A stretch of 56,094 nucleotides of DNA from Planctomycetota bacterium (lineage in GTDB: Bacteria > Planctomycetota > Planctomycetia > Pirellulales > UBA1268), in NCBI GenBank assembly GCA_016872555.1, contig VGZO01000028.1, positions 1 to 56,094 on the forward strand, read 5' to 3'. The translations under genes and the position numbers were made by a program. The notes below the pieces were generated by a model. That model saw only the letters and a list, made by a program, of their open reading frames with translations, was not told the DNA's origin and did no database searches. Of this stretch, positions 52,574-56,094 are shown in pieces (positions within the stretch are counted from its first letter, which is position 1; each line of letters begins with the position of its first letter).

Positions 52574-53029
52574 ATGCGGATCGCCGTCGGCAGTGACCAC
52601 CGGGGGGTTTCCGCCCGGCTGCGCTTGATCGGTCTGCTCGAGCGCCTCGGCAACACGGTCGTCGACTGCGGCTGCCCGACGACCGATCCGGTCGACTATC
52701 CCGACATCGCCGCCGACGTGGCCGGCCGGGTGAGCCACGGCACGGTCGACCGCGGCATCCTCCTCTGCTGCACCGGCGTGGGGATGGCGATCGCTGCCAA
52801 CAAGCTCCCCGGCGTCCGCGCCGTGACCTGCGGCGACGAGGTGACGGCCGAGCTGAGCCGGCGGCACAACGACCTCAACGTCCTCTGCCTGTCGGCGGAG
52901 ATGGTGGGGCCGGAGCTGCAGGAAAAGATCATCCGCACCTGGCTCGACACGCCGTTCGAGGGGGGCCGCCACGCCCGCCGGGTGGCGAAGATCAAGGCCC
53001 TCGAGCCCCACTGCGGTGACGGCGGCTGA
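52574..53029 (+). CDS. rpiB: RpiB-type ribose-5-phosphate isomerase (RpiB/LacA/LacB family)
   Basis: A 151-residue sugar-phosphate isomerase. Family motifs: AVGSDHRGV (usually SDHAG), the DYPDIAADVA block, LLCCTGVGMAIAANKLPGVRA (Cys65 as the candidate catalytic Cys, normally CGTGIGM) and SRRHNDLNVLCLSA. It catalyses ribose-5-P/ribulose-5-P exchange, or the allose or galactose equivalents in paralogues. It is translated 3 bp after the YrdC/LMW-PTP fusion, so they share an operon. The basic C-terminal tail (EGGRHARRVAKIKALE) is normal. RpiB versus LacB is not resolved. Confidence 0.92.
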   Translation: MRIAVGSDHRGVSARLRLIGLLERLGNTVVDCGCPTTDPVDYPDIAADVAGRVSHGTVDRGILLCCTGVGMAIAANKLPGVRAVTCGDEVTAELSRRHNDLNVLCLSAEMVGPELQEKIIRTWLDTPFEGGRHARRVAKIKALEPHCGDGG

Positions 53030-53062
53030 TAGCTCCGTCCTTCGCGCAGCCGTAAGAGTCGT

Positions 53063-53800
53063 TCAATCGGCTGTTCGTTTCTCACTCAGAACCTCGTTGA
53101 GCACGATGCGGCATCCAGTCTTATCGAGCACAAGCAACAACTCCTTCTCGGTCTGGGCGTAAATCTGAATCGTGGGCTCCACGTGGAGGATGTGTTGCAC
53201 GTCCGCAGGGCACTGCACCTTTTGTGCTGCCCTTTCCATGTGCCCGCACTCGCCAAGTACGAATCGGTACTCCCTCTGGTAGGCATAACCAGCCGGCTTG
53301 CAGAAAACTCCCCACTCGCTCTGCCTCGCCGAGTACTCGACTAGGCCATGATCGAGCGCGTTGGCCGACTCTGAGGGAGCGTTTGCGCGCACGTGACTGG
53401 CAAAGACCTCGATATGGTCCCGATGGAGAAACACGTACCGGGAACCAAATGTGGCTCGCATCTGATTGACGTCGTTGACGAGCCTCTCAAGTTCTTCGAA
53501 ATCAGTCGGTAATCCGATCGCGAACCAGCAATTTAGGCGCCCTGGCTTCCGACCAGGGTTGTGCGCTGTGAGCGCGGTTACCTGGAGTTCCTGGTCGCCA
53601 AACTTCATTTGCAGGGGGAATCCGCCATCCTGCATGCGAAATGTAGCCGAGCAGGATTCCTGGGGGTCGCCACGCCCCTCATGCCCATCGATGCGATAGG
53701 ACTCGGGCGGCGTGAAGTACACGAGTCCACGGGCTAACGAGGCAAGGTACTCGTCCTTCCCGAAAAACTTCAGCAGCCCGACAACCGCCTGGCTTTCCAC
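53063..53800 (-). CDS. Hypothetical protein in a low-GC region next to hsdM
   Basis: A 245-residue soluble protein started at GTG 53798-53800, chosen because a perfect AAGGAGG lies 8 nt before it. Base composition is visibly less GC-rich than the rest of the window, suggesting recent transfer. Features: [62 protein letters not shown] and a terminal [18 protein letters not shown]. The KPxxYxYQREYR stretch recalls uncharacterised proteins near restriction genes, but I cannot name the family. It is divergent from hsdM across 230 bp. A defence-related accessory is possible, unproven. Confidence 0.7.
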
Positions 53801-54030
53801 CTCAAAGCCTCCTTCTCATCGCTAGTTTTGTTTTGGTTCTCGCGCATCCCTCCCGTCTTGGGGGTCGCTACAGGGCACGAGGGCCTGGCCGCCCATGGCG
53901 ATCAATTCGATCGGACCCCGCTCGAGCGATCGTCGGACAGGAATCCGGCGGCGAACATCGTTCCGTGCCGGTGCGTGCCGATCCGGACAACCCCCTTGAC
54001 TTCGCGTGTCATATCGCAAACATAGCAGAC
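53801..54030. promoter_or_regulatory. Divergent promoter region upstream of hsdM
   Basis: The gap between the hypothetical gene and hsdM has TTGACT (53996-54001) as a candidate -35 box, with the AT-richer stretch CATATCGCAAACATAG 9 nt downstream; a -10 hexamer is not clear. The arms TGTCAT (54007-54012) and ATGACA (54031-54036, including the hsdM start) form a 6-bp inverted repeat 18 bp apart. Given the helix-turn-helix at the start of HsdM, such a dyad could be an autoregulatory site; this is speculative. Confidence 0.4.
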
Positions 54031-55860
54031 ATGACATCTTCATTCAACGTCCCCGTCGTCCTGCGAGCGATCCGCACGAATCTGTCCCTGACCCAAGAAC
54101 AGCTCGCCGAGCGGCTCGGCGTCTCGTTCGCCACGGTGAATCGGTGGGAGGGCGGCACCACGAAGCCGCAGAAGGCGGCGTTGGCCGCGATCGAGGCACT
54201 CGCCTCCGAGGCGGGCGTCGGTGATGAGCCAGAGGCTGCGGTGCCGACGGCGGCGCGACCACGGCGGAAGCGTGCGTCGGCGGCCGTGCCGACGACGAAG
54301 CCGATGGAGCAAATGCTGTGGGATGCCGCCTGCTCGATCCGTGGCGAGAAGGATGCGGCGAAGTTCAAGGACTATCTGCTGCCGCTCCTGTTCCTCAAGC
54401 GGCTCTCGGACGTGTTCGACGACGAGGTGGCCCGCCTCGCCGATGAATACGGCGATCGCACCACCGCGCTCGAGATCGCGGAGTCGGACCATTCGCTCCT
54501 CCGCTTCTACCTGCCGCCCGAGGCCCGATGGGCGGTGATCAGTGGCCGCGAGCAATATGAATGGCCTGTCGATGAGCGTGGTCGATCGACTGCCCCGCGC
54601 GGGTTTGGTGAGCACCTCACGAAGGCAGTGCGGGCCGTCGTCAAGCACAACCCGTCGCTCTCCGGCGTGATCGACATTGTTGATTTCGCGGCTGAACGGA
54701 ACGGTGAGCCGGACATCAACCCGGCGAAACTGCGAGGAGTCGTCGAGACGTTCTCCGACCCCCGTTATCGTCTCGGCCTCGCGGATGTGCAGCCTGATTT
54801 CCTCGGCCGGGCGTACGAGTTCCTGCTCCGCAAGTTCGCCGAAGGAGCAGGGCAGAGCGCCGGCGAGTTTTTCACGCCGACGGAGGTGGGCTTCCTCATG
54901 GCCCATATCCTACGGCCGCGGCCGGGCGAGACATGCCACGACTATGCGTGCGGTTCAGCCGGCCTGCTGATCAAGCTCCAGCTCGTCGCCCGGGAGCTGG
55001 ACCCCACTAGCAAGGTGCCGCTCAAGCTGTCGGGGCAGGAGCTCGGGGCCGAGAGCTTCGCCGTGGCCCGGATGAACGCGATCATCCACGACATGGACGT
55101 CGACCTCGCCCGGGGCGACACCATGATCAACCCGAAGTTTCTGGATGCGGCCAGCCGGATTCGCGGTCACGACATCGTCGTGGCCAATCCGATGTGGAAC
55201 CAGCCGTTTTCGCCCGAGTTGTTCGGCAACGATCCGTTCGACCGATTTCAGCCTGCGGGCGGGATCACCAGCGGCAAGGGTGACTGGGCTTGGCTCCAGC
55301 ACACGCTCGCCTGCCTCGATGACGACGGTCGTGCAGCCGTTGTGCTCGACACCGGCGCCGTGACGCGAGGCTCTGGATCGCAGAATGAAGACAAAGAGCG
55401 GAACATCCGCAAATGGTTTGTGGACAATGACCTTATCGACGGCGTCATCCTCTTGCCCGAAAATCTCTTCTACAACACGAACGCGGCCGGTGTGATCGTG
55501 ATTATCGCAAGGCGCAAGGCCACCTCCCGCAAAGGGCGCATTGCGCTGCTGAACGCTAGCCGCCGGTTCATCAAAGGCAAGCCGAAGAACTACCTGCCAG
55601 AAAAGGACATTCGGCTTCTTGCCGGAATCTATGCGAAGGGCGAGCCTGTAGTCGGCGAACTCACGATCATCACGAACGAGCAAGCCAAAGAAGCTGACTA
55701 CAACCTGAGTCCAAGTCGCTGGGTGAGTACAGCGGCGCCGGAAGAAGGGGATGCCCTTGCCGTAGTGCTTGATCAGTTTGAGACCGCGCTGGCCGCAGAA
55801 GCCGAGGCATCGCGAGACCTCGTGCCCTTGCTCGCGAAACTGCGGGAGTTGGCGCGATGA
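54031..55860 (+). CDS. hsdM: Type I restriction-modification methyltransferase subunit HsdM with N-terminal XRE HTH
   Basis: A 609-residue protein. Residues ~8-55 ([20 protein letters not shown] then [20 protein letters not shown]) are a complete XRE-type helix-turn-helix. A basic linker ([14 protein letters not shown]) leads to the N-6 adenine methyltransferase: helical N-domain with [20 protein letters not shown], AdoMet motif [11 protein letters not shown] (about 304-313) and catalytic motif [10 protein letters not shown] (about 386-393, the NPMW subtype in place of NPPF). Motif I has Ala-Gly where GSGG is usual. It modifies the recognition site with HsdS. The stop overlaps the next ATG (ATGA) at 55857. 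Fusion to an HTH suggests self-regulation. Confidence 0.93.
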
Positions 55861-55994
55861 GTGACGGAACGGTGTGCTTAGCAGACCTTTGCGACTGTGT
55901 TGGTGTTCACGTCGATCCGTGCGATGGCAAGGACGGCGTGTATGTAGGGCTCGAGCATGTCGCCTCCGGAGCTATTGTCAAGAGTTGTGTTTAG
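55857..55994 (+). pseudogene. hsdS: Truncated hsdS (specificity subunit), first 45 codons only
   Basis: Translation starts at ATG 55857, overlapping the hsdM stop by 4 bp as expected for HsdM-HsdS operons, and stops at TAG 55992-55994. The 45 residues, including VCLADLCDCVG and DGVYVGLEHVASGAIVKS, resemble the start of an HsdS target-recognition domain (LGDLC..., YVGLEHI...SG), which would normally be 400 residues or more. A transposase 3' end follows at once on the opposite strand, so the gene appears interrupted by an insertion sequence. Whether the remainder exists beyond the window cannot be seen. Confidence 0.75.
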
Positions 55995-56094
55995 AGGTCC
56001 TGGATCAGGCGGCGTTCTGCAGGACTCCGTCGGTGAACACTTTTCCTTCGAGAACAAGAACGATCTGGTGATGGCCGTTGAGTCGTCGCCAGCG
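55981..56094. mobile_element. End of an insertion sequence, continuing past the window
   Basis: The left boundary is uncertain: hsdS similarity fades at about 55980-55990 and the transposase stop is at 56005-56007. Neither the terminal inverted repeat nor the target duplication can be confirmed without the other end. IS256-type elements are one possibility from the transposase C-terminus. Confidence 0.5.
56005..56094 (-). CDS. Transposase C-terminus, IS256-like (5' part outside the window)
   Basis: On the minus strand a frame open to the right edge ends at TGA 56005-56007 and encodes 29 C-terminal residues, RWRRLNGHHQIVLVLEGKV then FTDGVLQNAA. The pattern W-R-[RK]-L-[NG]...V...G-x-F-x-DG followed by a terminal AA is what I recall for the C-terminus of mutator/IS256-family transposases. 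With so few residues the family call is tentative, but a real gene end is likely because of its position immediately past the broken hsdS and the strict open frame. Confidence 0.6.
   Translation of the reverse strand, partial: RWRRLNGHHQIVLVLEGKVFTDGVLQNAA

Follow-up and report, generated by a model that had tools for sequence, protein, structure and literature searches.

The locus at the right end of the window, the 56,094-nucleotide stretch of DNA analysed here, is very likely a horizontally acquired type I restriction-modification system whose hsdS gene was cut by an IS256-family element and which is decayed rather than switching. An IS-broken hsdS is best read as an ordinary kind of restriction-system decay, with loss of function. 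The window is the contig VGZO01000028.1 (C28) of a 162-contig, 4.47-Mb assembly (G000) that is 97.9% complete. Its last base, 56094, is the last base of the contig and no base is available beyond it.

The hsdM gene (54031..55860, forward strand) starts with the ATG at 54031 and ends with the stop codon 55858-55860. Its product (P0001) has the HsdM_N and N6_Mtase Pfam domains of type I methyltransferase subunits (3.1e-23 and 9.4e-69, respectively) and matches the PADLOC model MTase_I (2e-147). Fused to this methyltransferase is an amino-terminal helix-turn-helix (HTH) domain of the XRE type, residues 14-58 matching HTH_3 above the Pfam gathering score (1.2e-9). The closest HsdM relatives are ~80% identical and are found mostly in Proteobacteria, while none of the three congeners searched has a relative at E 1e-30 or better. 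Carriage of this HsdM by plasmids gave no match at E 1e-100. A search of open-access literature, which leaves aside most subscription papers, gave no description of an HsdM with a fused HTH.

The initial annotation described hsdM as followed, in an ATGA overlap, by an hsdS frame with its stop at codon 46, with a convergent transposase gene ending 10 bp further on. All these elements are found in the sequence: the hsdS ATG at 55857 lies inside the hsdM stop, the TAG of codon 46 is at 55992-55994 and the stop codon of the transposase gene is at 56005-56007. The frame of 45 amino acids matches 17 related loci in a tblastn search, after hsdM or further downstream and in most cases directly after hsdM (best match 62% identity over 42 amino acids, E 3e-14), so the stub is a genuine hsdS start. 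Interruption of hsdS by an IS is therefore maintained, but the position of the break at codon 46 is not. In a search with the last 130 bases of the window the best IS copies in relatives start at query bases 3-5 (window 55967-55969), and the aligned copies share GAGCTATTGTC after unrelated left flanks. The element thus begins at 55969. Native hsdS amounts to 37 codons plus one base (codons 1-37, 55857..55967, forward strand, delimited by homology to HsdS amino termini and by the IS boundary), codons 38-45 and the stop being IS sequence. The closest match to the stub, from Frigidibacter, reads VYIGLEHVASGRFVRF where the window has VYVGLEHVASG followed by IS sequence, and the match to hsdS is lost at roughly the point where the match to the IS copies sets in. 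The break falls well ahead of any place at which a target-recognition domain of HsdS could be complete, and the full-length subunit with two such domains that is proper to a type I system is reduced to 37 native codons.

The window holds the first 126 bp of the element (55969..56094, reverse strand), which include the 3' end of the transposase gene and are identical at 111 of 126 positions to a complete copy in a relative (genome G017, L134:4556-5919). The transposase carboxyl terminus reads ...GKVFTDGVLQNAA and its gene points against hsdS. The complete copy is 1364 bp long and encodes a transposase of 422 amino acids that matches NF033543 (transpos_IS256, 275.6 bits for a cut-off of 150, 4.9e-82) and PF00872 (Transposase_mut, 2e-51). 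It ends in imperfect terminal inverted repeats, GAGCTAT...AGTTGTGTT, and is flanked on both sides by the 9-bp target duplication TTGAGAATG, within the 8-9 bp of the IS256 family. The transposase family, the length, the imperfect repeats and the duplication of this copy align the window element with IS256-type elements, from which its 126 bp present in the window show no remarkable difference. The inverted repeats and target duplication that the initial annotation proposed to look for are thus present on the copy in the relative, while at the window there is only the left copy of a putative duplication, TCGCCTCCG (55960..55968, forward strand), delimited by analogy with the 9 bp that are duplicated around the complete copy. 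A related IS256-type transposase sequence, 72-73% identical, is found elsewhere in the same assembly (contig C6:83962-84601, L154); it is probably degraded because it is matched in two pieces that lie in different frames.

Contig C28 ends 126 bp inside this IS256-family repeat, and in relatives, too, several contigs that carry the IS break off about 126 bp into it. Such ends fit an assembly graph of k = 127 broken at a repeat, and the window presumably stops where it does because the IS is repeated in the assembly. One end of another contig of the same genome (C74, L153:12541-12666) carries the right end of a similar IS256-type element, likewise 126 bp into the IS. It was considered as the other side of the window insertion and rejected: its flank is the unrelated CACGACGGC instead of TCGCCTCCG and it lies next to cytochrome c-like genes. 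This end is another copy of the element or a rearranged junction.

Because the junction lies at the extreme end of a contig of metagenome type, an assembly chimera has to be considered. The same junction is found in a contig of another metagenome-assembled genome (VGYP01000374.1, contig C374 of G296, L031), which is 100% identical to window positions 52935-55988 over 3054 bp and ends 20 bp inside the IS. Its source is the Planctomycetota MAG K_DeepCast_35m, which is linked by its sample name to the Lake Tanganyika study, whose metaSPAdes assemblies were made sample by sample (PMC8245535). G296 has its own version of the rpiB region, 74-78% identical, and contig C374 is therefore probably misbinned from the species of the window. 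The recurrence of the junction in two assemblies makes a chimera extremely unlikely. Against it stand also the coincidence between the end of hsdS homology and the beginning of IS homology, and the 126-base repeat overlap at C28, at C74 and approximately so in relatives, which is what a true repeat edge in a k = 127 graph is expected to give.

The hsd genes lie in an island of low GC content (58-64%, with 63.5% for hsdM, against 72% for the window). Its left border is an rpiB-like sugar-phosphate isomerase gene (52574..53029, forward strand; named by eye), whose synteny is conserved in congeners. Between rpiB and hsdM a gene on the reverse strand (53063..53800, GC 57.7%) codes for a protein of 245 amino acids that has no Pfam, NCBIfam or PADLOC match and shows 26-27% identity to products encoded on three plasmids (Yersinia, Pseudoalteromonas), two of them annotated as hypothetical proteins. 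The comparison with relatives that had been suggested does provide an empty site: in the congener G001, 95.7% identical in DNA through rpiB, a Gfo/Idh-type gene comes immediately after rpiB (names by eye), which places the hsd locus in an island inserted between the two. In the genome of the window the Gfo/Idh-type gene is located on contig C42, behind 1.6 kb of DNA that hold a pair of PIN-like and DUF433 genes (C42:1-1612). As a candidate for the other end of the island this contig supplies the right border, but it starts with neither the IS nor hsd genes. A further congener, G002, has extra DNA after rpiB (L168; L180:388-1495) with a MazG-like frame (by eye) and a gene for a protein resembling the DUF433 protein of C42; the site after rpiB is a possible integration hotspot. 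Horizontal acquisition of the hsd locus follows from the low GC content, the empty site, the lack of an HsdM relative in the congeners searched and the mostly proteobacterial nearest relatives. On this reading a type I locus coding for the HTH-HsdM, HsdS and, by analogy, HsdR inserted downstream of rpiB, and an IS256-family element landed after codon 37 of hsdS with its transposase gene directed against hsdS.

In related loci the gene order is hsdM, hsdS and hsdR, sometimes with extra genes in between. An uninterrupted open reading frame of at least 330 codons directly follows hsdM in 69 of the 75 relatives with enough downstream sequence, and hsdR is present within the fetched flank of 66 of 79 loci. 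The remainder of the window hsdS and hsdR, which the initial annotation expected beyond the contig end, were not found in assembly G000: Pfam and protein searches gave no HsdR, PF01420 had no match at E<=1 and an HsdS query retrieved no HsdS besides the stub. No full-length hsdS was thus found elsewhere in the assembly, and the loss of target recognition, predicted earlier unless another HsdS substitutes, is supported for the assembled genome. HsdM is probably without a specificity subunit because hsdS is interrupted and no substitute was found in the assembly.

On one contig of G296 (C341, L146; GC 62%) the final 70 codons of an hsdS are followed by an intact hsdR that belongs to the same subfamily, and then by the beginning of a frame that looks, by eye, metallopeptidase-like. 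This contig could represent what is lacking from the window locus and, like C374, may be misbinned into G296. GC content and subfamily make it a plausible candidate for the missing half of hsdS, but it is unlinked to the locus, breaks off within hsdS, and has as its nearest relatives a set that is not specific to the window HsdM.

Decay of the system would be contradicted by a full-length hsdS in unassembled DNA or by an intact allele carried by some members of the population, for which there is room as the rest of the element, the second copy of the target duplication and the remainder of hsdS are all absent from the assembly. The initial annotation also envisaged a phase-variable state, which an element of the IS256 type could create if it excised precisely and restored hsdS in some cells. 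In staphylococci, phenotypic variation has been linked to IS256 transposition (PMC7911514), and the hsdS end and intact hsdR of C341 imply that an uninterrupted allele could exist somewhere. That contig has no link to the locus and its hsdS is itself truncated where the contig stops; the insertion is the same in two assemblies, neither of which gave an intact allele linked to the window hsdM, and no second hsdS copy that could serve for inversion was found in G000. Phase variation finds no support here and is held to be very improbable.

Decay may have gone beyond the insertion. Deletion of the rest of hsdS and of hsdR, with or after the arrival of the element, is a form of the decay reading that we hold as a tentative possibility: neither HsdR nor further HsdS is encoded in a 97.9% complete assembly, and the other island end (C42:1-1612) has the unrelated PIN/DUF433 pair and no hsd gene. 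However, C42 starts at an unrelated break and not at the IS, hence DNA is missing between C28 and C42, and short contigs left out of the bin, such as C341, may hold the absent genes. Systems of one type I family can exchange subunits, and HsdM might be served in trans by an HsdS from another locus; the genome has a second hsdM locus (contig C15). The lack of any HsdS in the assembly makes this highly doubtful; moreover, the HsdM of C15 is 37% identical, so that its HsdS would likely belong to another family, and the C15 locus is itself interrupted. The insertion into hsdS with loss of function remains the preferred reading. An HsdM deprived of its specificity subunit would mean neither methylation nor restriction by this locus, while the remaining protein may still bind its own promoter through the HTH domain.

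The C15 gene (C15:83816-85276; contig end at L135:3616-5461) is the only other hsdM of G000 at E 1e-30, and it is also near a contig end; both hsdM loci of the genome thus sit at contig ends in this 162-contig assembly. The gene after it starts with MTAPLSQQELESY, which resembles the start of the second HsdM in a tandem pair of genome G080 (MNASLSQSQLESY), and is replaced after ~13 codons by a sequence repeated on contig C1. The cut gene is probably a tandem hsdM, judging from this start, and the repeated sequence is the edge of an element that resembles IS630 (by eye, not by a family model). Interruption of both hsdM loci, by different elements, is suggestive of relaxed selection on type I restriction in this lineage, or of selection against it, though there are two cases only. 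Neither this second disrupted locus, nor the exact IS boundary, nor the HTH domain of HsdM with the operator-like repeats described below had been noticed in the initial annotation.

The upstream DNA of genes coding for HTH-HsdM proteins, from the window and from the loci of its HsdM relatives, was aligned at the start codon (62 unique sequences). The anchor of each row was ATGAC or ATGGC, so that bases 0-4 are fixed and those upstream are not; 9 loci that lack a start of this kind were excluded. Mean information is 0.91 bits per base at -25 to -1 compared to 0.07 at -90 to -46. The consensus ATAGCAAAC ATAGCAAAC ATGACA is a 9-bp direct repeat that overlaps the predicted promoter and the start codon, with a self-match at period 9 of 0.62, against 0.31 when shuffled and 0.27 further upstream. 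In the window the three repeats are ATCGCAAAC ATAGCAGAC ATGACATCT (54013..54039, forward strand); positions 54013-54036 are the sole match to the repeat in the window at up to 3 mismatches, with none in 100 shuffles. The predicted hsdM promoter (53996..54023, forward strand) is composed of TTGACT, a 16-base spacer and AAACAT. In 38 of the 62 sequences TTGAC precedes the ATG by 35 or 36 bases, so that transcription is expected to start at the ATG or next to it. In-frame stop codons occur within the 87 nucleotides upstream in 35 of the 62 sequences, and the repeat block therefore does not, as a rule, belong to a longer coding frame. Nothing comparable is found at the loci of 18 HsdM proteins that are more distant (best 7-9 mismatches, versus 0-4 in 11 close relatives), while the repeats are kept in HTH-HsdM relatives from many phyla. 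These genes thus have at their own promoter the conserved operator-like site expected of a self-regulating methyltransferase. The simplest reading would make the repeats a candidate operator for the HTH domain of HsdM itself.

The window locus resembles known type I systems in its HsdM domains, its ATGA-coupled hsdS and the HSDR_N/SWI2-SNF2 type hsdR of its relatives. It differs from them by the cut of hsdS after 37 codons, by the hsdR not found in G000 and by the extra amino-terminal HTH domain of HsdM. Fusion of an amino-terminal HTH to a methyltransferase that represses its own synthesis is described for type II regulatory methyltransferases (PMC12707154). The window protein shares with them this fusion and a conserved repeat over its own predicted promoter, but it is a type I HsdM whose binding and repression are predictions. 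In an E. coli type I defence island the target of RptR, a separate repressor of 79 amino acids, consists of three 9-bp direct repeats that lie across the -10 box (PMC12255303), an arrangement like that of the window, where three 9-bp direct repeats overlap the predicted -10 box of a type I operon. The RptR repeats are TTTAGCTAA, with a TAGCTA palindrome (PMC12255303), whereas the HTH of the window is part of HsdM and its ATAGCAAAC repeats reach into the start codon. The RptR island also has an M48 metallopeptidase gene (PMC12255303), to be compared with the metallopeptidase-like frame after hsdR on C341.

The HTH-HsdM group is little noted. We lean, with some reserve, to the view that it is a widespread self-regulating type I group in which HsdM would repress its own, probably leaderless, operon through the three 9-bp repeats over the predicted -10 box and the start codon; loss of hsdS would then leave HsdM as a transcriptional repressor only. 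An HTH-fused HsdM with its promoter element across many phyla matters more than one broken hsdS. Little is known about the regulation and transcriptional control of type I systems (PMC12707154), for which the HTH-HsdM genes offer a specific, testable candidate operator and its putative regulator in one gene.
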